NCBI GenBank assembly: GCA_004298675.1
Contig: SCRI01000051.1
Span: 1-12,055 of the forward strand
From: a bacterium
Lineage (GTDB): Bacteria; Vulcanimicrobiota; Vulcanimicrobiia; Vulcanimicrobiales; SCRA01
Direction of reading: 5' to 3'
Length of the DNA stretch: 12,055 nucleotides
Shown here one piece after another: positions 2 to 12,055 of the stretch. A program made the position numbers and the translations under genes. The notes under the pieces were generated by a model. It searched no databases. It saw only the letters and a list, made by a program, of their open reading frames with translations, and was not told the DNA's origin. Each line of letters begins with the position of its first letter. Position 1 is the stretch's first letter.

Positions 2-145
2 GCGGACGCCGCGTACCTCGAGCTGGCCTCCAACCATGGTCACGATGCGTTCTTGGCGGAGCCGGAGTCTCTCACGCGCCTGCTGGAGCCGGTGTTGGCG
101 CCGCTCTATGCGCGCGAGCGCTATCCGGACGCCGCGCTGGCGTGA
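2..145 (+). CDS. metX: Homoserine O-acetyltransferase-like protein (3' fragment)
   Basis: Only the last 47 codons are present; the gene begins left of the window. The frame reads to a TGA stop and contains SNHGHDAFLAEPE, which matches the C-terminal end of MetX-type alpha/beta-hydrolase acyltransferases, where the His of GHDAFL is the charge-relay histidine of the Ser-Asp-His triad. MetX transfers an acetyl (or succinyl) group to homoserine in the cytoplasm, the first committed step of methionine synthesis. A related serine or homoserine acyltransferase cannot be excluded because the nucleophile elbow and substrate-specific residues lie outside the window. The gene converges on the zinc-ribbon gene with only 7 bases between the two stop codons, and no terminator hairpin fits there. 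The family assignment is fairly secure from the motif; the exact substrate is inferred. Confidence 0.85.
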   Translation, partial: ADAAYLELASNHGHDAFLAEPESLTRLLEPVLAPLYARERYPDAALA

Positions 146-1220: not shown

Positions 1221-1894
1221 TGACGCTCCTCGACGAGCACGCCGGTTCCCACTACATACCGGAAAACGAACGTGGCTGCGAACGCGCCGAGCAGTTGCGC
1301 AACGACGAACATCGGTATGTCGATCGGCCTGATGCCTGCAAACGTGTCAGACATCGAGCGTGCGATAGTAACCGCCGGGTTCGCAAACGATGTCGACGAC
1401 GTGAACCAGTACGCCGCTACGATATACGCCGCGACCGCGAACGCAGTGAACTGAGACTTAACGCGCACGCATCCCCAGATCACGAGCAGCAAACCGAACG
1501 TCGCGACGAACTCGGCAAACCAGATGGACGGCCCGGCGCGTATGTGCCGCGACACGGAGAAAAGCGGCAATCCGAACATGATATTTGCGGTGGCTACTCC
1601 AACGATGCCGGCGACGATTTGCGAAGCGGCGTAGCCGAATGCTTCGCCCCACGACAGCCCGCCGAACAAAGCACCGGCAAGCGACACGGCTGGATTGAAG
1701 TGCGCCCCGGAAATAGGTCCTAGTGCGATGATAAGACAGACGAGCACACCGCCGGTCGCAAGCGTATTTGCGAGCAAGGCGATGGCGACGTTACCGCCAG
1801 ACAACCGTTCCGCCATGATGCCGGAACCGACGATTGCCGCGAGCAGAAAGCCGGTCCCGATGAACTCGGCGAGACACCGTCGCGCGAGCGTCAT
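1217..1894 (-). CDS. Aquaporin-family (MIP) channel of an ars operon
   Basis: A 225-residue, six-helix MIP protein with both half-helix signatures: HFNPAVS (N67-P68-A69) and FANPAVTIARS (N172-P173-A174). Its position between arsR and arsC is that of AqpS in Sinorhizobium meliloti, where the channel is known to pass arsenite out of the cell down its gradient after ArsC reduction. I therefore infer an arsenite (metalloid) channel. The residue right after the second NPA is Val (175), where water channels and GlpF have the selectivity-filter Arg; an Arg occurs four residues later. I chose the ATG at 1894 because it overlaps the arsR stop as ATGA; an in-frame GTG at 1906 would add four residues and deepen the overlap to 16 bases. 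Neither start has a clear Shine-Dalgarno sequence, which fits coupling. Confidence 0.9.
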   Translation of the reverse strand: MTLARRCLAEFIGTGFLLAAIVGSGIMAERLSGGNVAIALLANTLATGGVLVCLIIALGPISGAHFNPAVSLAGALFGGLSWGEAFGYAASQIVAGIVGVATANIMFGLPLFSVSRHIRAGPSIWFAEFVATFGLLLVIWGCVRVKSQFTAFAVAAYIVAAYWFTSSTSFANPAVTIARSMSDTFAGIRPIDIPMFVVAQLLGAFAATFVFRYVVGTGVLVEERQ

Positions 1895-2253
1895 GCGTTG
1901 CGGCACTCACGCTGAACGGAGACGGGCGACCCTTTCCCTTCGAACGCGGACGCCAAAGCCGCGCGCACGCGCTCGTGCGCTCTTGGCGCAAGGTGGTAGT
2001 AAACCCAGGTTCCGCGGCGCTCCGATATAACGAGCTCGGCCTCGCGCAGAATCCGAAGGTGATGCGAGACCGTGGGCTGATTCAACGGCAGCGCCGCAGT
2101 AAAATCGCAGACGCAAACCTCGCCGGCCGCCGCTGCGAGCATGGCAAGCATGGTCAATCGGTAGGAGTCTGCCACTGCCTTCAGGAGCCCCGCAACCGTC
2201 TCAAAGTCGTTCCAGATCACTTCCGAGGGCGGATAGGACCGCTGTATTGACAT
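1891..2253 (-). CDS. arsR: ArsR/SmtB-family arsenic-responsive repressor
   Basis: A 120-residue winged-helix regulator. EVCVCDF (C47, C49) is the alpha-3 metalloid-binding motif of arsenic-sensing ArsR proteins. QPTVSHHLRILREAELV (about 59-75) is the recognition helix region, followed by the beta wing ERRGTWVYYHL. In this family As(III) binding releases the repressor from its operator, and it normally represses its own operon. Its gene leads arsR-aquaporin-arsC; the stop codon overlaps the next ATG. The promoter -10 box ends six bases before the ATG and no Shine-Dalgarno sequence is present, so the mRNA is probably leaderless. An in-frame GTG at codon 12 also lacks a ribosome site, so the ATG is preferred. 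Confidence 0.95.
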   Translation of the reverse strand: MSIQRSYPPSEVIWNDFETVAGLLKAVADSYRLTMLAMLAAAAGEVCVCDFTAALPLNQPTVSHHLRILREAELVISERRGTWVYYHLAPRAHERVRAALASAFEGKGSPVSVQRECRNA

Positions 2254-2255
2254 AT

Positions 2256-2274
2256 TTCGATTCTAGAGATCGAA
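2256..2274. promoter_or_regulatory. Probable ArsR operator (inverted repeat over the -10 box)
   Basis: Perfect six-base arms TTCGAT (2256-2261) and ATCGAA (2269-2274) flank a seven-base centre. The dyad covers the whole -10 hexamer of the ars promoter, where a bound ArsR dimer would block RNA polymerase. Location and symmetry match how ArsR/SmtB repressors act; binding itself is inferred. Confidence 0.7.
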
Positions 2275-2288
2275 CCGGAAATCGTCAA
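2260..2288 (-). promoter_or_regulatory. Strong sigma-70-type promoter of the ars operon
   Basis: On the minus strand, TTGACG (2283-2288) and TAGAAT (2260-2265) stand 17 bases apart, five of six and five of six matches to the TTGACA and TATAAT consensus. Counting seven bases from the -10 box places the transcription start on the A of the arsR ATG (2253). This is the clearest housekeeping promoter in the window and implies a leaderless arsR mRNA. Confidence 0.8.
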
Positions 2289-2321
2289 GAGAGACGTGGC
2301 GGCGATCCGCTACAGCGCGTT

Positions 2322-2801
2322 CTAACCCAGCTGATCCCAGGCGCGGGCCGGTATCAGCCAACGCAACGTGCCCGCGCCTGCTTGCGGGCGCGCGAGATCG
2401 ACGCGGCAGAGCGCGCCCTTGCCGAAGCGTAACGTCAAGCCGTTGGGGGCCACGGCAGCGGTCAGCAAACGCCCGCACAACGGCTCGTGACTGATGGCGA
2501 TGACGGCATCGGCGTCGAGCGTCCCCAACTCTTCGAACAGCTTGATGGGATCGGCGGAGGGGATCAAGCCGGTCGTGCGCAGGATGGTGGCGCGCGGCAA
2601 CGCCGCCTGCGCCGTCTCCAAAGCGCGCGCATACGGACTGGACAGCACCATGTCGAAACGTAGTCCCAGGCGCTTGAACGCTTTCCCGGCACGCTCCATG
2701 CGCATGCGTCCCTCGCGCGTCAACGGACGCTGCGAGTCATCGGGCCAACGAGTGGGATCTTGCTCGCCGGCATCGCCGTGGCGCATGATGTAAAGCTCCA
2801 C
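2322..2801 (-). CDS. sixA: SixA-type phosphohistidine phosphatase
   Basis: A 159-residue histidine-phosphatase (phosphoglycerate-mutase-like) protein. It begins with the catalytic MRHGDAGEQ (R7-H8-G9), continues with SSPYARALETA (R59) and has the second catalytic histidine in ISHEP (H105). The size and order match SixA, which removes phosphate from histidine of HPt domains and of nitrogen-PTS proteins in enteric bacteria. The partner in this organism is unknown. The start is a GTG preceded by AAGGTGG, a good ribosome site. It follows the 43-residue membrane-protein gene on the same strand, with a GC-rich hairpin in the 84-base gap. It ends shortly before the ars promoter. Confidence 0.88.
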   Translation of the reverse strand: MELYIMRHGDAGEQDPTRWPDDSQRPLTREGRMRMERAGKAFKRLGLRFDMVLSSPYARALETAQAALPRATILRTTGLIPSADPIKLFEELGTLDADAVIAISHEPLCGRLLTAAVAPNGLTLRFGKGALCRVDLARPQAGAGTLRWLIPARAWDQLG

Positions 2802-2824
2802 GCCACCACCTTCGAAACGCCGAA

Positions 2825-2850
2825 GGCCCGCGCCTTCACTGACGCGGGCC
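2825..2850 (-). terminator. GC-rich hairpin between the small membrane-protein gene and sixA
   Basis: GGCCCGCG (2825-2832) and CGCGGGCC (2843-2850) form a perfect eight-pair stem with a ten-base loop. On the minus strand no U run follows; on the plus strand a short GGTTTT lies a few bases beyond, but no plus-strand gene ends here. It may be a partial terminator or an mRNA-stability element separating two cistrons. Confidence 0.4.
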
Positions 2851-2885
2851 CCCGCCGGTTTTGACCTTTGAGAGAGATCCCTACG

Positions 2886-3017
2886 TTACGCCGCGACGTC
2901 CGACGAGACGTTGCCGGCAGCCTGACGCTGCTCGCGGCGCGCGCCCGACGCGGGAAGAACGATCCACGCGACGACCAGCGATCCGAAGGCAACCAGACTA
3001 GCGACGAGCATCTCCAT
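2886..3017 (-). CDS. Small single-pass membrane protein (43 residues)
   Basis: I found this gene by reading the minus strand between amt and sixA. ATG at 3015-3017 is preceded by a perfect AAGGAGG (3023-3029) with five bases between, and the frame runs 43 codons to TAA. The protein starts MEMLVASLVAFGSLVVAWIV: one hydrophobic segment (about residues 3-22), then a basic, polar tail (ARREQRQ...). The positive-inside rule puts the tail in the cytoplasm. A TATACT hexamer (3041-3046) lies 23 bases upstream of the ATG. It is not a family I recognise. It follows amt by 105 bases on the same strand, in the position where many bacteria have glnK, so a link to ammonium transport is possible but only inferred from position. 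Confidence 0.7.
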   Translation of the reverse strand: MEMLVASLVAFGSLVVAWIVLPASGARREQRQAAGNVSSDVAA

Positions 3018-3040
3018 GCGAACCTCCTTGGCTTGGACTC

Positions 3041-3046
3041 AGTATA
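3041..3046 (-). promoter_or_regulatory. Putative -10 box of the small membrane-protein gene
   Basis: TATACT on the minus strand matches five of six bases of TATAAT and lies 23 bases upstream of the ATG, giving a 5' leader of about 16 bases that just accommodates the AAGGAGG site. The -35 region is poor (TGCGGG at a 17-base spacing), so an activator or read-through from amt may also contribute. Confidence 0.45.
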
Positions 3047-3122
3047 CGTCGCCTGCCCTCAGCCCCGCATTGGACGGTTGCCCAAGCGTGAGGGGCCTGC
3101 CGTTCAACGAACGTCGAGACGA

Positions 3123-4376
3123 TCACGGCGCCGGGGCCACGACCTCGCGATGCTGGGTCACGTCCAGGCCCATCGCCTCCTCCTGCTCGCTGACCCGCAG
3201 CGGCACGAAGATGTTGACGAGCTTCAGGATCGCGAACGTCATCACCGCGGAATAGCCGAACGATGCGCCCACGGCGATCAACTGGATCAGCAGTTGCCTA
3301 GGGTTGCCGTAGAGCAGGCCGTTGGAGGCGCCCGCGTTGATGGCCACGGTGGCGAAGAGGCCGGTAGCCAGCGCCCCCCACACGCCGCCCATGCCGTGCA
3401 CGGCGAAGACGTCCAGCACGTCGTCGACGCCACTGCGGCGCATCAGATGCACGCAGACGTAGCAGATGGTGCCGGCACCCAAGCCGATTAGAATCGAGGC
3501 CGGCGTGGTCACGTAGCCCGAAGCCGGCGTGATCGCCACTAAGCCTGCCACGGCGCCGGCGGTGGCGCCGAGCACGCTGGGCGTCCCCTTGTGCATCCAG
3601 GAGATCGTCATCCAGGTGAGCGCAGCCATGGCGGCGGCGGTGTTGGTGACCACGAAGGCATTGGCGGCGAGGCCCCCGGACTGGATGGCGCTGCCGGCGT
3701 TGAAGCCGAACCAGCCGAACCACAGCAGGCTCGCGCCCAGAATGGTCATGGTGGCGTCGTACGGCTCATCCGGCTGTGCCTGGCCGCGCTGCAACTCGAT
3801 ACGCCGTCCCAGCACCGTTGCCGCCACCAGCGCCGAGACACCGCTCGTGATATGCACCACCGTGCCGCCCGCGAAATCGAGCGCGCCCAGCTTCGAGCCC
3901 AGCCAGCCGCCGTGCCCCCAAACCCAGTGCGCCACGGGATCGTACACCAGCGTCGACCACAGCAAGCTGAAGATCACGAAGGCCTTGAAGCGCTTGCGTT
4001 CGGCGAAGGCCCCCGTGATCAGCGCGGGCGTGATGACGGCGAACATCATCTGGAACGCCATGTATGCCAAATGGGGAACGGTGGCGCCGTAGTCGGTGTT
4101 GGGCGTCATGCCCACGCCATTCAAGCCCACCCACGAGAGATCGCCGATGATGCCCCAGCCGTGCCAATCGGGGCCGAAGGCCAGCGAGTAGCCCCACATC
4201 ACCCACTGCACGCTGATCAGGCATAGGATGAAGAAGCTGTGCATGATCGTGGAGAGCACGTTCTTGCGGCGAACGAGCCCTCCGTAGAAGAATCCCAGGG
4301 CCGGAGTCATGACCATGACCAGCGCGGCTGAAGCAAGCAGCCACGCGGTATCTCCCGCGTCGATCTTGGGGTGCAT
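3123..4376 (-). CDS. amt: Ammonium transporter, Amt/MEP/Rh family
   Basis: A 417-residue integral membrane protein of normal Amt length with about eleven helices. The conserved LDFAGGTVVHITSG holds D167 and the first pore histidine H175; DVFAVHGMGG holds the second pore histidine H327. MTPALGFFYGGLVRRKN near the N terminus and FGWFGFNAGSA in the middle are also family signatures. There is no long cleavable signal peptide: the protein starts directly before helix 1 (MHPKIDAGDTAWLL). It conducts ammonium/ammonia into the cell. The start is supported by AGGAGGAG just upstream. No PII (glnB/glnK) gene is adjacent; the small membrane-protein gene follows instead. A TAGCAT -10-like box lies 21 bases upstream. 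Confidence 0.97.
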   Translation of the reverse strand: MHPKIDAGDTAWLLASAALVMVMTPALGFFYGGLVRRKNVLSTIMHSFFILCLISVQWVMWGYSLAFGPDWHGWGIIGDLSWVGLNGVGMTPNTDYGATVPHLAYMAFQMMFAVITPALITGAFAERKRFKAFVIFSLLWSTLVYDPVAHWVWGHGGWLGSKLGALDFAGGTVVHITSGVSALVAATVLGRRIELQRGQAQPDEPYDATMTILGASLLWFGWFGFNAGSAIQSGGLAANAFVVTNTAAAMAALTWMTISWMHKGTPSVLGATAGAVAGLVAITPASGYVTTPASILIGLGAGTICYVCVHLMRRSGVDDVLDVFAVHGMGGVWGALATGLFATVAINAGASNGLLYGNPRQLLIQLIAVGASFGYSAVMTFAILKLVNIFVPLRVSEQEEAMGLDVTQHREVVAPAP

Positions 4377-4381
4377 CGGCT

Positions 4382-4395
4382 CCTCCTCTTGGAGG
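4382..4395 (-). promoter_or_regulatory. Hairpin masking the amt ribosome binding site
   Basis: In the amt leader, CCTCC (4391-4395) can pair with GGAGG (4382-4386) around an AAGA tetraloop. The GGAGG is the Shine-Dalgarno sequence of amt, so the fold would hide it. Five G-C-rich pairs make a modest stem, and whether it forms in vivo is unknown. Confidence 0.4.
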
Positions 4396-4397
4396 GG

Positions 4398-4426
4398 ATG
4401 CTACCAGGAGTTCCGGCGCTCGTGCA
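4398..4426 (-). promoter_or_regulatory. Putative amt promoter
   Basis: On the minus strand TGGTAGCAT gives a TAGCAT -10 hexamer (4398-4403) with an extended TGn element. TGCACG (4421-4426) is a weak -35 at 17 bases. The predicted start leaves a leader of about 15 bases containing the ribosome site. No sigma-54 GG-N10-GC element is apparent, although amt genes often use one. Confidence 0.45.
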
Positions 4427-4544
4427 TTCGACGCGGCGTTAGCGTTGCAGCCGCCGCATACGACGTTTGCAGGAGTGGGGACCGTGCGTGCGCGGCAAAC
4501 ATGGCCAAAGCGTCAACGGCACGGCCCCCCGGTGCTTCAATGGA

Positions 4545-5048
4545 TCAATGCAGGGTGATGTGGAACCAGGTCTCGCCTTTGCCGTTGACGTTGACGTTCA
4601 CGGTGTAGTCGCCCGGTTTGAGCGCCACGTTGTTGCCGTACTCGGCGCTTCCGGAGCCCTTACCCAGCTCCTCGACGCGCGCCACCTGCATCTGCAGCGG
4701 GGCGCCGCCGGCGGACGGCGTCACCATGATGCTGACGTCGGCATCATGAACCAACGCGCCCGTGCTCGCGCTAACGATCTGCACGGCTAGAAAGGCGGTA
4801 GGTGCCGGCGTGGCGGCGAGCGTCACGGGGCCGTCGCCGGCCACGGCGATCAGTCCGGTGACGACGCCCGCGGCCTTCGCGGCGGCGCTCGTCGCGTAGA
4901 GCGGCTGCGAGGGCGTGAACTGAATGCTCACCCGGTAGGGCCCGGCCACGGCGCTGTTCGGAGTCGCCGACTGCTGGGCAAACGCGGGTGGAGTAAGGAG
5001 GGCGACGCACGCAACAGCGGCCGCCAAAAGACGCGCGATGAAGTTCAT
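4545..5048 (-). CDS. Secreted beta-rich protein with P19/Tp34-like tail
   Basis: A 167-residue protein with a type I signal peptide (MNFIARLLAA...PPAFA, predicted cut after A24). The mature part begins PYRVSIQFTPSQPLY and ends AEYGNNVALKPGDYTVNVNV...ETWFHITLH. The YGNNV-x-L-x-PG-x-YTV stretch resembles the end of the P19/Tp34 periplasmic iron-transport-associated proteins, and the overall beta-sandwich pattern also fits YtkA-like domains. The histidine/methionine metal ligands of P19 are not clearly conserved, so metal binding is uncertain. I start at the ATG at 5048; a frame extension to 5102 would add a poor non-signal leader. TATAAC ends six bases before the ATG without a ribosome site, so the mRNA may be leaderless. 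It lies 72 bases downstream of the chemotaxis-receptor gene. Confidence 0.65.
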   Translation of the reverse strand: MNFIARLLAAAVACVALLTPPAFAQQSATPNSAVAGPYRVSIQFTPSQPLYATSAAAKAAGVVTGLIAVAGDGPVTLAATPAPTAFLAVQIVSASTGALVHDADVSIMVTPSAGGAPLQMQVARVEELGKGSGSAEYGNNVALKPGDYTVNVNVNGKGETWFHITLH

Positions 5049-5054
5049 GGCGCG

Positions 5055-5063
5055 GTTATAGCA
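5055..5063 (-). promoter_or_regulatory. Extended -10 promoter element of the secreted-protein gene
   Basis: TGCTATAAC on the minus strand combines a TGn extension with TATAAC (5055-5060). The hexamer ends six bases before the ATG, so the transcript should start at the A of ATG. The -35 region (TGTTCG at a 17-base spacing) is poor, which an extended -10 element can compensate. Confidence 0.6.
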
Positions 5064-5120
5064 CAGACGGAGCCCGGCGAACACGAAAAATATCGGAGCC
5101 ACCGGGATGCGAAAGCGGCG

Positions 5121-6788
5121 TTAGATGGCCGCGATATCCATGGCCACGCGCAGCGCGCCCCAGCGCTGTCCACGCACGTAGAGCGGAACCGCGAGGTCGT
5201 CCATCACCACGCCGGTGTCACGCGCATAGGTCTGGACGGTCATCGAACGCGCCCCCGGCCGGCTGCGCAAGTCCACTCCACGCTGCGTGAAGGCGGAACG
5301 CGGCGCGCGCAGCGGGACGTCCATGCCGCCCACTAAGCCCACCCGGGCGCAACGGATGCCGACGGGATCGTCGAAGATGCGCTTGATGCGGTTCCCCGGC
5401 AGATCCAGCTCGTCGTCGCCGGTGATGTCCTTGCGATAGTCGCGATAGTGCGCGATGAGAAAACCGTTGATGTCGACGATGCAAAAGTAGATGAGGTGCT
5501 TGTCACGCGCGGTATAGCGGTCGACGATCTCCACCAATGCCTCGTCCACCTTGCCGTCGTAGCTCGTACGGTACTTGGGCGGGCGGAAGGCACCGCCGCG
5601 TAGCCGCTCGACACTGAAGAGCCGCGCGAGTCTGCGCACGTCGGGTCCCGTGATCTCCACGTAGCCGGTGTCGAAGACGTCGCGTTCGGAGACGTGGCCG
5701 CTCTCGATCGTGCGCTCGAAGACCGCTTCAATCTCGGCTGCAGCCTCGTTGGCCCAGTCACGGGCGCGATCGATGAAGGTTCCCAGCCGGTACCGCGCGA
5801 GCACCTCGAAGGCATGACCGGTGACCTCGCCCAGGTTGAGCTTGCCGGCATCCTTGGCGTTGGCCGCGCCTTCGTTGGCGTGGGCGCTCAGCGCTTCGAC
5901 ACCGTGTGAGATCTCGCCGAGCACGGCCGACTGCTGTTCCACCGTGGTGGCGATGGAGGCAACTTGCTCCGTCGACTTCTCGATGATCTCGGTCATGTGG
6001 CCGAGATCGTCGCGCACCTTGGAGGCTTCGGCGCTCACCTCTACCGCGCGCTCCGTGCTCTTAGCGGTAGCCGTGCGTGCGGCTTCGACCGAGGAGAGCA
6101 CGTTGCGAATCAACGCTCCGATCTCCTTCGTGGAAGAGCGCGTCGAATCGGCCAGCTTGCGCACTTCGTCGGCCACCACTGCGAAACCGCGGCCATGCTC
6201 GCCTGCCCGCGCCGCTTCGATGGCCGCATTGAGGGCCAAGAGATTGGTGCGTTCCGAGACGTCATCGATGACGTCGACAACCTGCTCGATCTGCTGCGAG
6301 AGCTGCACCACACCCGAGACGTGCCCTGCCGCCTGCTCCGCCTGCGCGCGTAACTGTTCCAACTTCTCGAGCGAGCGCTCCACGGCCGTGAACGACGCCG
6401 ACGACGAGGCACGCATCTCATCGGTGAGGCGGCGCGTGTGGTCCGCGGACTCCGCCACCATCTTCGCGCCTTGTGCGCTCTCGTGCACGGCGGCGGCGAT
6501 CTGCGAAGTCTCCTCAGACTGCCGGTGCGTGGCCGCGGCGATGCGCCCGATCAGGAAGCCGTTGCGCGCGGCGGCCGCCGAGCCTTCGTTCGTGCGCCGC
6601 TCGAGATCACAGAGATCGGAGGCGATGCGCGTGAGCGCCGCATTCAACGCCTCGCACAACTCCACGACGTCCGCCGGCGCACCGGCGGGCGCCGCAAACG
6701 GCGCGGTGAGATCGGCAACATCTTCTGCGGCCAATCGCCTGAGCTGGGTGCTGATATCCTGGATAGCGGTCGCGGGCTCGGTCATCAT
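5121..6788 (-). CDS. Soluble methyl-accepting chemotaxis protein with C-terminal sensor domain
   Basis: A 555-residue protein without any membrane segment or HAMP domain. Residues 80-310 form the coiled-coil signalling domain; its tip reads [19 protein letters not shown][16 protein letters not shown] (about 179-214), the highly conserved region that contacts CheA and CheW. The sensor part comes after it: residues 325-555 include [28 protein letters not shown] and [20 protein letters not shown], a pattern I recognise from cytosolic receptors with a Cache-like C-terminal domain. Ligand unknown. About 25 residues (482-513) between the RC motif and the QTYARDTG motif look longer than usual. The ATG pair at 6783-6788 is preceded by AGGGAGGGG seven bases away, and by a sigma-28-type promoter. 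Confidence 0.92.
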
Positions 6789-6812
6789 GCGCTTGCCCCT
6801 CCCTGCATGGCA

Positions 6813-6839
6813 TTATCGGCCAACACAGCGCATGCTTCA
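6813..6839 (-). promoter_or_regulatory. Sigma-28 (FliA-type) flagellar promoter of the chemotaxis gene
   Basis: On the minus strand TGAAGCAT (6832-6839), an 11-base spacer and GCCGATAA (6813-6820) match the enterobacterial sigma-28 consensus TAAAGTTT-N11-GCCGATAA: eight of eight in the -10 element and five of eight in the -35 element. The predicted transcription start leaves an 18-base leader carrying AGGGAGGGG. Chemotaxis receptors are standard members of the sigma-28 regulon. Confidence 0.8.
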
Positions 6840-6850
6840 GGGGGCAAAGA

Positions 6851-6895
6851 GAGGCGACGTGAGAACGCGTCCCCCCACAGCTCTCGCGTCGCCTC
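6851..6895 (-). terminator. Long inverted repeat, likely terminator of the upstream membrane-protein operon
   Basis: Arms at 6851-6864 and 6882-6895 pair over 13 of 14 positions around a 17-base loop. It lies 77 bases past the stop of the 415-residue membrane-protein gene and directly upstream of the sigma-28 promoter. On the minus strand it is followed by TCTTTG, a poor U tail. It would insulate the chemotaxis gene from read-through. A palindromic operator is the alternative. Confidence 0.5.
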
Positions 6896-6902
6896 CGCCG
6901 CA

Positions 6903-6944
6903 GGTATCTCCTTGCGGGCGGTAATCTTTTAGGCCCAGGTAATC
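6903..6944. repeat. Three spaced GGTA(A)TC copies
   Basis: GGTATC at 6903-6908, GGTAATC at 6920-6926 and GGTAATC at 6938-6944 on the plus strand start 17 and 18 bases apart. The spacing is not far from two helical turns. They lie upstream of the sigma-28 promoter and downstream of the 415-residue gene. They could be a tandem protein-binding site or chance. Confidence 0.3.
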
Positions 6945-6971
6945 GCTTCCTCTGGCCTTTGGGCTATTGAC

Positions 6972-8219
6972 TCACGGGGTCGCCGTTACGCCGCCCGGGT
7001 GCCCTGCACGCGAAATCGCCACGGCCACGTTCGCCGTCATCGACACCCAGCCGGCAAGGCCGAGGATTCCAGCCAAGTGCACCATCCCGGCGCCGCCGCT
7101 GCCGAGGCCGATGGCCCCGAGCAGGATCGCGAGCTGGAACGACGCGTAGGCCACCCAGCTCAGCGGGGCGGTCAGGAGCTCGCTGGGAGGCGTCTCGTCG
7201 TCCTCGCCACGGAACGTCGTGGCGATCATGCGGATCGCGACATGGTGCAGGTGCGCGAGCACCATCTGCCCCACCCAGCCCACCAGCGCGACGAAGACGT
7301 AGGACGCCTTCCAGGGTGCACCGCCGACCACGCCCAAGCCCAGCACCACCGCAACCGCCAGCCACAGCACGGATGTCAGATAGAACGCCTGGGGCGGGCG
7401 ATGCGCGACTTTCGCGTGGCTCGCGAGATCGACGACGTCGACCATGTAGAGCGCGAGGGCGGCGGCGACCAGGATCGCGCCCACCCACACCAGCACCCCG
7501 AGCGAGAACCAGAGGCCAAACACCAGCGCGAAGATGCCGACGGTGATCGCCAGCGCCGCGGTGATATGGTGCCAGAGCACGCTTGGGCGCGCACCGAAGA
7601 TAGGGCCGCTCGTGCGCACCGAGACGCCCATCACCAGCACCGTGAGCCATCCGATCCCCGCCACGTGCGCATGCACGGCCGGCGTCGTCACGAGCCAACC
7701 CGGAGCGGCATGGCTCGCGAGTGCCAGCGCCATGCCCAGGCCCAAGACCGCCGCGGCGATCAGGAACGAGAAGACGATCAGGAACGCGCGCGCGATGGAG
7801 GCCTCCGTGCGCGGGCCACGCGTTGCCGCGCTCAGCATCGGCAGCACCGCCAAGAGGTAGACGATCAGGCCCGCCAGCACCAACGCCGCCGACCACGACA
7901 ACGCGCCGGGATGCTGGCTCCAGAAGGATGCCACCATACCGAAGGCACCGATACCGAAGAGCGCCAGCGCGACGCGTGCCGCCCGCTCGTGGCGGAGATC
8001 TACTTCCGTAAACGCGGGCATGACGTAGACCAGCACCGTCAGCGCCGTCAGCGTCAGCCAGGCCAGCGCCGCAAGATGAATCCACGCCAGGCCGTGCAGC
8101 GTGGGGCCGGTCCAGTCCGTTACCGTAAGTCCCGCGAGCATCACCCACATCAACGCATGCGCGATATGGCCGGCGATGAGCCCGCCCGGCGGAATCCAGG
8201 GGCGCGAAGCGACGCGCAT
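6972..8219 (-). CDS. Multi-pass membrane protein with heme-copper-oxidase-like histidine motifs
   Basis: A 415-residue protein of about eleven or twelve hydrophobic segments. Two segments share an H-x5-W-L pattern: H48...W54 (IHLAALAWL) and H183-x-H185...W191 (HAHVAGIGWL). The latter resembles the H-x-H-x-G-x-x-G-W motif of helix X in cbb3 oxidases and NO reductases, whose histidines ligate heme. AHLHHV (322-327) adds further intramembrane histidines. It is much shorter and otherwise unlike a full oxidase subunit I, so heme binding is an inference. NnrS was considered, but its HAHE-type motif is missing. The start ATG at 8219 overlaps the TGA of the preceding gene (TGATG); the frame upstream of it reads as a shadow. 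The two genes are clearly translationally coupled. Confidence 0.75.
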   Translation of the reverse strand: MRVASRPWIPPGGLIAGHIAHALMWVMLAGLTVTDWTGPTLHGLAWIHLAALAWLTLTALTVLVYVMPAFTEVDLRHERAARVALALFGIGAFGMVASFWSQHPGALSWSAALVLAGLIVYLLAVLPMLSAATRGPRTEASIARAFLIVFSFLIAAAVLGLGMALALASHAAPGWLVTTPAVHAHVAGIGWLTVLVMGVSVRTSGPIFGARPSVLWHHITAALAITVGIFALVFGLWFSLGVLVWVGAILVAAALALYMVDVVDLASHAKVAHRPPQAFYLTSVLWLAVAVVLGLGVVGGAPWKASYVFVALVGWVGQMVLAHLHHVAIRMIATTFRGEDDETPPSELLTAPLSWVAYASFQLAILLGAIGLGSGGAGMVHLAGILGLAGWVSMTANVAVAISRAGHPGGVTATP

Positions 8220-8671
8220 CAGCGTGTCCGCGCCGGTGCGCGTGCGGGCGCTTTGATGCGCACCCACACGACGAATCCCACGATCGCGATCGCGGCGAAC
8301 TGCAGCAACGCGCCGAAAATCAGCAGCGCGGACACGGCGGGATTGTCGGCCAGTGCGACCCACGGTTCGAAGATGAGCCGCAAGGGGAGCCCGACGTTGA
8401 GCGCGAGGTAAGCCACGATCACCGCGCGCACGGGATAGCGCCCTTTACTTTCGGGAAAGCGCCGCGTGTCGAGGGGAAACATCCAAAGTGCCACACCAAT
8501 TACCACGTTGACTAACCAGCCGACGAAACCCGCATGCCCGTGTTCGATGGCGATGATCGGGGGCAGGGGATGCTGGAAGGCCTCTGCCGCCGCAAGGATC
8601 ACGCCGGCGAGGAAGGTGAGCCCGAGGTAGACCATCGCGGTCTTGATGAACAGACGCGGCTCGATCGGCAT
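8219..8671 (-). CDS. Four-helix membrane protein with H-x-H-x4-GW motif
   Basis: A 150-residue protein with hydrophobic segments at about 8-30, 47-67, 81-101 and 112-137. At the start of helix 2, EHGHAGFVGWL carries H44, H46 and W52, followed by a proline at 66. This is the same H-x5-W-x13-P arrangement seen at H48 of the downstream partner, and it resembles helix X of CcoN/NorB, where H-x-H binds heme. It is too small to be an oxidase on its own, and no Cu-B histidine set is visible. A ribosome site AGGAG lies seven bases before the ATG. It is coupled to the 415-residue gene by a one-base stop/start overlap, so the two probably form a complex. Confidence 0.75.
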   Translation of the reverse strand: MPIEPRLFIKTAMVYLGLTFLAGVILAAAEAFQHPLPPIIAIEHGHAGFVGWLVNVVIGVALWMFPLDTRRFPESKGRYPVRAVIVAYLALNVGLPLRLIFEPWVALADNPAVSALLIFGALLQFAAIAIVGFVVWVRIKAPARAPARTR

Positions 8672-8788
8672 CTCCCTCTCCTCGTGTCCTCTCTCATGGT
8701 AGCGGACCCGCGGAGTGACCCAGGTCCCAGGAGGGCCGTTTCAGCGATGCACCGCGAATGCCTTGGATTGGAGCACGAACTCGAGGCG

Positions 8789-9232
8789 CTATGCGGCGTA
8801 GCCGATAGCGACGATCGTGAGCGGAAGATCCCCGGCAGGGCGCCGCCACAACACGCGGTCGCCCACGCGCGCACCGATCAACGCCTTGGCCAGCGGCGAG
8901 ATCCAACTGATCGCACCATGCGTGGGATCGGCTTGATCCTCTCCCACGATCGTGTAATCACGGCGCGCCGCATCCGCTCCCTGGACGGTGACGGTAGCGC
9001 CGAACGCCACCACGTCACGCGGCTGACGCGTGAGATCGACGACGATCGCGTTCTCGATGCGGCGGCGCAGATACGCGGTGTCGCGCTCGTTACTCGACGC
9101 CTCCGCGGCACGCAGGCGCTCCTCGAGCGCCTCCAGCCCACGCTGCGTGACGTAATTCGGGTGGCCGCTCTCCGGACGCGCGGCAGGCAGCTCCGGGGCG
9201 TCCTCGCTCTCCTTGACAAAGGCCCTGCTCAT
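8789..9232 (-). CDS. GreA/GreB-family transcript cleavage factor
   Basis: A 147-residue protein beginning MSRAFVKESEDAPELP, typical of one branch of the GreA/GreB family. The C-terminal FKBP-like domain is clear: VAFGATVTV, YTIVGEDQAD, GAISWISPLAKALIG and VGDRV-W. Gre factors insert a coiled coil into the RNA polymerase secondary channel and trigger cleavage of backtracked RNA. Here the coiled coil (about 27-65) is short, and the tip reads SSNERDTAY where GreB has GDRSENADY, so the acidic pair is altered. Whether it cleaves RNA is therefore open. It is 30 bases downstream of the cupredoxin gene, with a small CCCCG/CGGGG dyad in the gap. A strong ribosome site is not evident (AAGAAG at about 10 bases). 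Confidence 0.88.
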   Translation of the reverse strand: MSRAFVKESEDAPELPAARPESGHPNYVTQRGLEALEERLRAAEASSNERDTAYLRRRIENAIVVDLTRQPRDVVAFGATVTVQGADAARRDYTIVGEDQADPTHGAISWISPLAKALIGARVGDRVLWRRPAGDLPLTIVAIGYAA

Positions 9233-9247
9233 CGTGCTCTACTTCTT

Positions 9248-9260
9248 CCCCGCTTCGGGG
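9248..9260 (-). repeat. Small GC dyad between the cupredoxin and Gre genes
   Basis: CCCCG and CGGGG pair around a three-base loop directly after the cupredoxin stop codon. There is no U run, so termination is unlikely; mRNA 3' protection or processing is possible. Confidence 0.3.
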
Positions 9261-9262
9261 AT

Positions 9263-9781
9263 TCAGCCGCCGAAGAAGCCCCGCAGCACACGCGTGGCGC
9301 TCGTCTTCGGATTTTCCGCGAGCAGGCGACGGTCGTGCGTCACGATGATGACCCCAGACATGGCTCCGCCGAAGCCGTTCACGCCTCGCCGCGGGGCCGC
9401 TTGCACCGCCTGGCCGAACGTCTTGACGAGCGCCGCGTGGACGGAACAGTAGTAGGTGTAGATACCGGGACGTGAGAGCCGCACCGTATAGGTGCCCACG
9501 CCGTGGGAGGCGCCCGGGGTGCCCGCTGCCCGCCCGTTGATGGCAAGCGGGCGCCTGCCCGTCTGCGGATCGAATCCCACGATGGTGTGCGCGTCGGTGT
9601 CTTGGTTGACGAAGACGACGGGCTGCCCCGGCTCCACGGCGACAACGGGTTCCAAGAAATCGTTCGCCCCGTTCATGTGCACGTAGACGGGCCCAGGCGC
9701 GGCCTGCGCCGCGGGGACGCTCGCAGCGAGCGCCAGCAAGGCGGCCATGGCCACAGCGAGCGGAAGAGAGCGTCGCAGCAT
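9263..9781 (-). CDS. Secreted plastocyanin-like cupredoxin
   Basis: A 172-residue exported protein with a signal peptide (about 1-27, SVPAAQA). The cupredoxin fold follows: VAVEPGQPVVFVNQDTDAHTIVG with Cu ligand H65, and GIYTYYCSVHAAL with ligands C112 and H115. The fourth ligand, normally a Met a few residues after the His, is not there; the next Met is M141, after a Gly/Ala-rich insert of about 25 residues. Type 1 copper binding is likely from H-C-H but the axial ligand is uncertain. A periplasmic or extracellular electron-transfer or copper-handling role is inferred. The ATG has a GGAGG site seven bases upstream, and the gene sits 21 bases after the nine-helix membrane-protein gene, so the pair should be co-transcribed. 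Confidence 0.9.
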   Translation of the reverse strand: MLRRSLPLAVAMAALLALAASVPAAQAAPGPVYVHMNGANDFLEPVVAVEPGQPVVFVNQDTDAHTIVGFDPQTGRRPLAINGRAAGTPGASHGVGTYTVRLSRPGIYTYYCSVHAALVKTFGQAVQAAPRRGVNGFGGAMSGVIIVTHDRRLLAENPKTSATRVLRGFFGG

Positions 9782-9802
9782 GTGGAAACCTCCGTGCAGA
9801 CT

Positions 9803-10816
9803 TTAACGTACCGCGCGGGGTTGTGCGTTGCAGAGTGCGTTGAGAAACGCGCCCACCAGCCCCGCGAAGAGAATCGAGCCGGCGGTGACGTCCGGCGTCC
9901 ACCAGATGCCGCCCATCGTGGCTGCCAGAACGGCCAGGTAAACGCTCCAGTAGACCGCCGGCACCGCAAAGGCAAAGACATAGCCCGCGCGTAGCGCGTC
10001 GCCAACGATGCCGCAGGCGAGGCTGGCCGCGACGACCGCCGCGAACTGGCCGGCGTCGTTGGAGTGGGCGCCGGCGACGAAGACGTTGCCCAGCAGCATG
10101 AAGAGCGTCAAGGCGCCCGGGCGCAAGTCGAAGCGGTGCTTGAGATAGAGCGCAAAGCCCGCCAGCAGCAAGCTCTGCACCAGCACCGCCAGCAGCCCGA
10201 TCCCTTGCTTGTAGTAGGCCAGCGTCAGCAGCGTCAGAGCGTCGCGCGGAGAGCTGGCGGGGATGAGCGGCGCGTTCATGCGGGCCGCCTCGCTGACGAA
10301 GATGAACTGCGTGCCCCAGTGCAGCAGCTCCAGCAGCGATGCCGCCGCGATCAACAGCGGCAGCTGCGCCGCCAGCGTGCGCGGCCTGTGGATCTGCGCG
10401 GCGCGGATCGGCCCCGCGCAGATGAGAAACATGCCCGCACCGATCAACAGATGTGTGGGGCTAAGCAGCGCGTTGAAGCCTTCCTCGAATCCCCACAGCG
10501 AGTGCTTGATTAAATCGGCAAGTCCGCCCGCTAGGCCGATGACCAGACCCGCCAGCGTGACCCCGTAGCCTGCCGGCAATGCCTGCCGCCACGGATACCC
10601 GCGGCGGTGGTAGTGCACGAGCACCACGGCGGTACAGACGTAGGCGGCGAGCAGCCCCGCGTAGAGCAAGCCGTGCGCCGGCTCGAAGAACGTCTCGACG
10701 TCATGATGAAAATGATGCCACGTGTCGACGAAGATCCCGGCGCCCAGCCACAGGCTGGCGATGGCGATCGCCCAATCGTAGAGTACGCTCTGCGACGGAA
10801 CGTTGGAGGTCTGCAC
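9803..10816 (-). CDS. Polytopic membrane protein with His-rich N-terminal motif
   Basis: A 337-residue protein (from the GTG at 10816) of about eight or nine hydrophobic segments. After helix 1 comes DTWHHFHHDVETFFEPAHG (about 31-49): five histidines and three acidic residues at the membrane surface, which could bind a metal. LLSPTHLLIGAGMF is a second His-bearing segment. I do not recognise an experimentally characterised family. The adjoining cupredoxin gene suggests copper or electron transfer, as inference only. The frame extends upstream to 10942, but that part is arginine-rich, overlaps the divergent lipoprotein gene and looks like a shadow. No good ribosome site precedes the GTG, so the exact start is uncertain. 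Confidence 0.7.
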   Translation of the reverse strand: MQTSNVPSQSVLYDWAIAIASLWLGAGIFVDTWHHFHHDVETFFEPAHGLLYAGLLAAYVCTAVVLVHYHRRGYPWRQALPAGYGVTLAGLVIGLAGGLADLIKHSLWGFEEGFNALLSPTHLLIGAGMFLICAGPIRAAQIHRPRTLAAQLPLLIAAASLLELLHWGTQFIFVSEAARMNAPLIPASSPRDALTLLTLAYYKQGIGLLAVLVQSLLLAGFALYLKHRFDLRPGALTLFMLLGNVFVAGAHSNDAGQFAAVVAASLACGIVGDALRAGYVFAFAVPAVYWSVYLAVLAATMGGIWWTPDVTAGSILFAGLVGAFLNALCNAQPRAVR

Positions 10817-10854
10817 GACCAGGGAGTTCGTCCGGCTCTTCGAATCCCCCCTGC

Positions 10855-11304
10855 GTGAGTACCGTATCGACGCACGCGCGCGGTCTTGCGTTCGCCGCAT
10901 GGCTCGCGCTCGTGGCGCTCGCGGGCTGCGCGCAGGCGCCACCGGCCGCGCAGACGCTCACCAGCAGCGCGGTGACACGCCTCCCGCAGCCGTGGCCGAC
11001 GGCAGCAACCGTGGCCGGCGACGCACCGCCGCGCATCCTCGCCGTTTACGTGAACCGGACCACCATCGGCAACGGCGACGAATGGCGCGGCCGTATCGTC
11101 ACCAGCACCAACGTCGCCAGCCTGGAGGTCCGCACGGAGTCGTTCTCGTTCGTTGCCGCGCGCACCGCCTTCGGTCAGTTCACGTTCGACGTTCACGTGC
11201 TCGACCTACCGCCGCAGTACCGTCGCGGCTACATGCTGCAGATCACCGCGCGCAACACAGCCGGCGCGCGCGACGACCGCTACGTTCCGATCCGCTTCCT
11301 GTAA
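10855..11304 (+). CDS. Small lipoprotein with beta-sandwich-like domain
   Basis: A 149-residue protein starting at GTG. The N-terminal MSTVSTHARGLAF... hydrophobic run ends in the lipobox LAGC, so C25 should be lipidated and the protein anchored to a membrane. The mature part alternates hydrophobic residues in short strands (ILAVYVNRTTIGNGDEW, ASLEVRTESFSF, GQFTFDVHVLDLP, YMLQITARN), like an immunoglobulin-type fold. No family is recognised. It is the only complete plus-strand gene in the right half. It diverges from the 337-residue gene with only 38 bases between starts, and its end overlaps the Nudix gene on the opposite strand by 25 bases. No clear ribosome site precedes the GTG. Confidence 0.75.
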   Translation: MSTVSTHARGLAFAAWLALVALAGCAQAPPAAQTLTSSAVTRLPQPWPTAATVAGDAPPRILAVYVNRTTIGNGDEWRGRIVTSTNVASLEVRTESFSFVAARTAFGQFTFDVHVLDLPPQYRRGYMLQITARNTAGARDDRYVPIRFL

Positions 11305-11801
11305 GCCCACGCCAGGGCGATCTGGGTCTTGGCATCGGGAATCTCGTCGCGCGTGACCATCTCCCACGCCTGCGCCAACGGCATGACTTCGACCTGGATC
11401 CGCTCGTACGGTTCGGGCTCGGCGGGTCCCGCCGTCAACCCTTCAGCTAGGCACAGATGGAGACGCTCGTCGCAGAAGCCCGGCGAGGTATAGAACGTCC
11501 ACAGCTCGCGCACGCGCTCGCAACGGTAACCCGTCTCCTCGCGCAGCTCCCGCGCGGCACACTCCACGGGGCGCTCGCCGGAATCCAGCTTGCCGGCGGG
11601 CACCTCCCAAAGGGGGCGATCGATCGCCGGGCGGTACTGCCGGATCATGACGATCTCGCTGGGTGTGGGCTGCGCGATGACGCACACGGCGCCCGGGTGC
11701 TCGACGATCTCGTAGGCGTGCGTGCGGCCGTCGTCGAGCGTGACGTCGTCGATGCGCAGGTTGATGATCCGGCCCTCATAGACGCGCCGCGAGCTTCGCA
11801 T
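11280..11801 (-). CDS. Nudix hydrolase, ADP-ribose pyrophosphatase type
   Basis: A 173-residue protein with a full Nudix box: G70-x5-E76-x7-R84-E85-L-R-E88-E89-T-G91-Y92, which binds Mg2+ and hydrolyses nucleoside diphosphates linked to another group. A proline 15-16 residues after the box (SPGF, P107) and the following CDERLHLCLAEGL are the marks of the ADP-ribose pyrophosphatase branch (ADP-ribose to AMP and ribose-5-phosphate). The N-terminal strand-rich part (VYEGRIINLRIDDVTL) also fits. I start at the ATG at 11801, preceded by GGAAG; upstream codons do not continue the family and overlap the next gene. Its 3' end overlaps the lipoprotein gene by 25 bases in the convergent direction. Confidence 0.93.
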   Translation of the reverse strand: MRSSRRVYEGRIINLRIDDVTLDDGRTHAYEIVEHPGAVCVIAQPTPSEIVMIRQYRPAIDRPLWEVPAGKLDSGERPVECAARELREETGYRCERVRELWTFYTSPGFCDERLHLCLAEGLTAGPAEPEPYERIQVEVMPLAQAWEMVTRDEIPDAKTQIALAWAYRKRIGT

Positions 11802-11835
11802 CCGCGGGTCTTCCGCGCCGCACGCTCCATGCCCC

Positions 11836-11864
11836 TCGCCAAGCGGCGCGCGGCGGGGTAGGAT
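11836..11864 (+). promoter_or_regulatory. Promoter of the glutathionyl-hydroquinone reductase gene
   Basis: TCGCCA (11836-11841) and TAGGAT (11859-11864) are 17 bases apart; they match TTGACA at four and TATAAT at four positions. The -10 box ends six bases before the ATG, placing the start of transcription at the initiation codon. The 69-base gap must also contain the divergent Nudix promoter, which I cannot locate. Confidence 0.55.
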
Positions 11865-11870
11865 GTGGCC

Positions 11871-12055
11871 ATGAACGTGCAGGCGCAATTCCCCGGCGAG
11901 CAGACCAAGGACGGTCAATTCGTCCGGCAGGAAGACGAGTTTCGCAACTGGATCTCCGCGGATGGCCGTACCGGCCTCCCGGCGGCCGCGGGACGCTACC
12001 ATCTCTACGTCTCCTACGCTTGCCCCTGGGCCCATCGCACGATCATCACGCGCCG
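11871..12055 (+). CDS. Glutathionyl-hydroquinone reductase (5' part)
   Basis: The first 61 residues of a Xi-class glutathione transferase (YqjG/ECM4 family); the gene runs off the right edge. GQFVRQEDEFRNWISADG followed by GRYHLYVSYACPWAHRT matches the family's start closely, and C51 of CPWAHR is the catalytic cysteine. These enzymes remove glutathione from glutathionyl-hydroquinones. Only the N-terminal thioredoxin-like part is visible. The ATG has no ribosome site but a TAGGAT box at the distance expected for a leaderless mRNA. An ATG eight bases upstream is out of frame and meets a stop within three codons. Confidence 0.93.
   Translation, partial: MNVQAQFPGEQTKDGQFVRQEDEFRNWISADGRTGLPAAAGRYHLYVSYACPWAHRTIITR

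Follow-up and report, generated by a model that had tools for sequence, protein, structure and literature searches.

The window that we analysed is a stretch of 12,055 nucleotides, contig C36 of a host genome of 3.03 Mb (98.5% complete) from an uncultured soil bacterium. The ammonium transporter encoded in it has its closest relatives in MAGs (93-94%) and its next closest in MAGs labelled Candidatus Eremiobacterota. An initial annotation had proposed that three genes of the window, for an ArsR-family repressor, a secreted protein and a glutathionyl-hydroquinone reductase, are leaderless, each with a -10-like hexamer ending exactly six bases before ATG and no ribosome site in between. The placement of TAGAAT, TATAAC and TAGGAT, each ending exactly six bases 5' of ATG, was confirmed. 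The Shine-Dalgarno sites that had been assigned to amt, the 43-aa gene, the cupredoxin gene and the chemotaxis receptor gene are real. In amt, the 43-aa gene, the cupredoxin gene and the gene at 8219-8671, a TANNNT lies instead at -24 to -30. The claim that no ribosome site is present held for arsR and the secreted-protein gene and failed for the reductase gene. Accordingly graded, the three proposed cases are strong for arsR, probable for the secreted-protein gene and better explained by a Shine-Dalgarno site for the reductase gene.

arsR (1891..2253, minus strand) encodes a 120-aa repressor of the ArsR/SmtB family (Pfam HTH_5, E 2.7e-13) and opens an arsR-aquaporin-arsC cluster. Its start region reads ctcTTGACGatttccggttcgatctcTAGAATcgaaatATG and has the layout TTGACG-N17-TAGAAT-N6-ATG, in which a -35 hexamer TTGACG (2283..2288, minus strand) is separated by a 17-bp spacer from the -10 hexamer TAGAAT (2260..2265, minus strand). 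No Shine-Dalgarno site was found at -17..-7. The gene therefore shows the layout by which we recognised leaderless genes, that is, no Shine-Dalgarno site and a -10 box whose end lies about 6-8 bases ahead of the start codon. An operator-like inverted repeat, TTCGAT-N7-ATCGAA (2257..2275, minus strand), lies across the -10 hexamer.

We compared this region with the corresponding loci of 29 related genomes, whose ArsR proteins share 48-70% identity with that of the host. The distance from the -10 hexamer to the start codon was six bases in all 30 loci, host included. For four of these loci the protein match stops short of the N-terminus and the -35 was used to pick the start, an ATG or GTG lying downstream of it, which means that these four are not independent. 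The N-terminus (MSIQR or MSMQR) and the start codon are conserved among the relatives; five of the 30 loci have GTG as the start codon, and in three the first base of the hexamer is not T. The pattern in the 29 relatives is TATTGACA...TCGAT...TAgtATCGA...ATGTCgATgCAa, with TATTGACA as the consensus at the -35. The spacer between -35 and -10 measures 17 bases in 23/30 loci, and the -35 is displaced by one base in the other seven. The left arm of the repeat, separated by N7 from the right arm in the host, lies farther upstream in most relatives (approximately TCGAT-N12-ATCGA).

Since the operator-like repeat overlaps the -10 hexamer, ArsR probably represses its own promoter; binding of ArsR to the TCGAT/ATCGA repeat would be the operator function that this arrangement suggests. 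The same overlap means that part of the conservation of the -10 could stem from the operator. Taken to its limit, the argument would be that the region is conserved as an operator alone and that transcription begins elsewhere, as the near invariance of ATCGA, which overlaps the -10, might suggest. However, TATTGACA is conserved at the -35, outside the repeat and 16-18 bp from the -10, the distance from promoter to start codon is constant, and the host start is not preceded by a Shine-Dalgarno site. We consider an operator-only origin of the conservation highly improbable, and arsR a strong candidate for a leaderless gene. Similar leaderless-type promoters were noticed before ArsR-family paralogues of the host (MAKLR..., about 122 aa) at L018, L036, L115 and L255; these promoters contain ATACATGATATAT or a variant of it, and at L255 only the start of the paralogue is present.

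The second gene (4545..5048, minus strand) encodes a secreted protein of 167 aa with a signal-peptide-like N-terminus; its family is unassigned, with no match in Pfam, and orthologues were found only within the same genus (70-71% identity). Its upstream region reads gtgTGCTATAACcgcgccATG. The -10-like TATAAC (5055..5060, minus strand), which lacks the final T of TANNNT, is preceded by TGC, making an extended -10 plausible, and no recognisable TTGACA -35 was found upstream of the gene. In the layout TGCTATAAC-N6-ATG, all nine bases of TGCTATAAC are the same in the host and in both congeners that have the gene, and the spacer matches at 5-6 of 15 positions in those congeners (ATG-anchored, ungapped comparison). 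Farther upstream, GTGCTATAAC and the block TTTTTCGTGTTC are kept in all three genomes while the intervening stretch diverges, which is the pattern expected of a promoter. The gene thus combines a -10 placed about 6-8 bases ahead of the start with the absence of a Shine-Dalgarno site, in a weaker form than arsR as the last T is absent, and its conserved upstream sequence suggests that it is a probable leaderless case.

The third gene, named by the initial annotation as glutathionyl-hydroquinone reductase-like (11871..12055, plus strand), is truncated where the contig ends, and its 61-aa fragment gave no Pfam match. Contig C70 of the same genome opens with an identical 39-residue stretch of the reductase, and the gene apparently continues there. 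The upstream region reads ggggTAGGATgtggccATG. Here TAGGAT (11859..11864, plus strand) is best read as a Shine-Dalgarno site rather than a -10, with the AGGA inside it starting at -11, which ranks among the two most frequent Shine-Dalgarno positions of the host genome. That the hexamer is a real leaderless -10 draws some support from a recurrent, palindrome-bearing leaderless-type gene of the order, at which TAGGAT appears as the -10 and is followed by 7-8 bases and ATG. Against this, no TTGACA-like hexamer was seen at the right distance before the reductase gene, and AGGA occupies a modal Shine-Dalgarno position. In addition, the closest orthologue (congener G002, 82%) reads GAGGATGATGTCATG, directly after an upstream gene, and keeps GAGGATG without any TANNNT at that place, nor is a TANNNT conserved there in other relatives. 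With AGGA at -11 and a hexamer that is not conserved, the gene lacks the leaderless layout; we rejected it as a case and regard a -10 role for TAGGAT as unlikely.

To follow up the genome-wide check that had been suggested, a plot of TANNNT positions relative to ATGs, we used a 1.95-Mb sample of the host with 1610 called genes. Genes were called with a home-made finder based on a hexamer coding score, which chose starts without looking upstream. Among 568 ATG genes that are first in their transcription unit, TANNNT occurred at -14..-11 in 36, compared to 14.7 expected (P=2e-6). Operon-internal ATG genes (n=546) showed no peak, with 6 occurrences vs 8 expected, and the Shine-Dalgarno signal was strong in both sets. 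Treated likewise, a D. deserti plasmid used as a positive control gave 10 vs 2.1. A C. metallidurans plasmid, intended as a negative control, gave 3 vs 3.4; this control is imperfect, as a paper mentions leaderless transcripts for that organism. A Streptomyces plasmid was too small to inform.

The 36 host sites have further promoter features. A Shine-Dalgarno-like motif was near only three of them, and a perfect TTGACA at 16-18 bp was present in five. When the -35 was defined as at least 4/6 matches to TTGACA at 16-18 bp, it was found at 11 of the 36 sites and at 25 of 227 TANNNT sites farther upstream (P=0.004). No genome-wide enrichment of the TGn extended -10 was seen at the host sites at -14..-11. 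We also anchored the count on promoters of the form TTGACA(5/6)-16..18-TANNNT, taking ATGs that open at least 60 codons. Downstream ATGs peaked at 6-9 bases (3, 7, 3 and 4, a total of 17 with arsR included), compared to about 0.7 per position, and 0-3 at nearly all positions, at other distances. The host therefore has both marks of a genome with leaderless genes, a TANNNT peak just 5' of starts and a promoter-anchored peak. The peak upstream of ATGs that had been predicted was found; its spacing is 6-9 bases with a mode of 7, not exactly six. It is broad and small. The leaderless excess over background corresponds to about 4% of first-of-unit ATG genes with strict TANNNT, a lower bound because the strict motif and errors in start assignment both lose cases.

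These data bear on whether AT-rich hexamers lie six bases before three ATGs by chance, the genes having conventional leaders and being transcribed from more distant upstream promoters. The hexamer class of the initial annotation is loose and was chosen post hoc, and its reductase example drops out. Defining the class as TA plus at least 4/6 matches to TATAAT (background 0.4-0.6% per position), its occurrence at one spacing in 3 of about 13 window genes has a P of about 1e-4, four spacings being allowed for and the choice of class being post hoc. On the other side, the genome-wide TANNNT peak is missing from operon-internal genes, -35 boxes are associated with the TANNNT sites, and conservation extends across the order at arsR and across the genus at the secreted-protein gene. 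Coincidence is already strongly disfavoured, and we judge it very unlikely.

We searched for exact TTGACA-N16-18-TANNNT-N6-8-ATG in 41 genomes (host, genus and order) and obtained 160 matches, compared to 43 with a last gap of N14-16, 37 with N1-3, 52 with N30-32 and 8 with the reversed pattern (totals are sums over per-search tables). In another family of the same class, five genomes together gave 20 vs 7 (N14-16). Outside the class the result was mixed: clear in the large-genome family f13 (57 vs 11) and absent in other families. The f13 genomes with leaderless-type spacing, elsewhere in the phylum, were G054, G061, G064, G068, G072 and G075.

Several other genes with leaderless-type promoters were noticed. 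One encodes a protein in which a Cro/C1-type HTH domain is joined to RibBA, a riboflavin enzyme (L169:826-2265 in the host, where it comprises DHBP synthase and GTP cyclohydrolase II; also L251, L252 and L254). Its -35 lies within an inverted repeat, TTGACA-NN-TGTNAA, similar promoters occur in several genomes of the order, and the fusion is possibly a self-regulating enzyme; our literature search found no paper on it. In another (L249:353-1051, minus strand; L250:286-1038, plus strand), the SOS-box-like palindrome TCGAACATATGTTCGA lies between -35 and -10, and the promoter recurs in many genomes of the order. Identification of this gene as lexA proved wrong; by eye, its product looks ImuA/RecA-like. 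A gene for a CsoR-type metal-sensitive repressor (L010:19436-19744, minus strand) also has such a promoter. We tentatively entertain, without favouring it, the view that Eremiobacteria inherited leaderless initiation from their ancestor as a trait of the whole class. On this view it would be concentrated in genes that regulate themselves (the ArsR-type and CsoR-type metal sensors, the HTH-RibBA fusion and the palindrome-bearing RecA-like gene), with operators inside the core promoter and a fixed distance from promoter to ATG.

Together, the sequence layout, the genome-wide peak and the conservation indicate that the host (Ca. Eremiobacterota, WPS-2) very probably uses leaderless initiation in a minority of its genes beside a dominant Shine-Dalgarno mode; the dual use put forward in the initial annotation is thereby supported by the genome-wide test and by phylogenetic footprints. 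Most genes carry a Shine-Dalgarno site. A smaller group would have a sigma-70-type promoter; its members are mainly genes first in their unit, among them arsR and, probably, the secreted-protein gene. As 6-9 bases separate the -10 of such a promoter from the start codon, transcription should begin either on the A of ATG or no more than about two bases away. The resulting leaderless mRNA would presumably be read by 70S ribosomes or by 30S ribosomes loaded with initiator tRNA.

Leaderless initiation is well known in bacteria. In the literature searched, whose reach left most subscription papers outside, we found no report of leaderless genes in Eremiobacterota/WPS-2, the hits being a reference-list entry or unrelated, and our sequence-based results newly indicate it for this group. 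They add evidence from sequence that a phylum with few cultured members has a second way of starting translation, bear on start-codon annotation in Eremiobacterota and on tracing the distribution of leaderless initiation among bacteria, and offer the arsR promoter as one well-defined, conserved test case. The GeneMarkS-2 leaderless class is cited in PMC9581028, along with a prediction that leaderless genes are used by 21.6% of bacterial species. A survey of 953 genomes defined a TA-led gene class, in which a TA-like signal about 10 bp upstream marks leaderless genes (PMC3160421); the host shares this sign, and Eremiobacterota are absent from the list of groups in that survey. Leaderless genes are also known in Actinobacteria, e.g., M. 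tuberculosis (PMC3898074), which resemble the host in a high-GC genome, a TANNNT -10 and a start at the first codon. Transcription starts have been mapped in Actinobacteria, whereas those of the host are predicted from sequence and the proportion of leaderless genes in the host is lower. In Deinococcus-Thermus, TANNNT precedes the ORF of leaderless genes by about 6-7 bp (PMC12340547, PMC3160421). There, as in the host, a TANNNT -10 adjoins ATG and leaderless genes are mixed with Shine-Dalgarno genes; however, the leaderless share is about one-third or more of genes in Deinococcus-Thermus and, with the strict motif, no less than about 4% of first-of-unit ATG genes in the host, which belongs to a different phylum.
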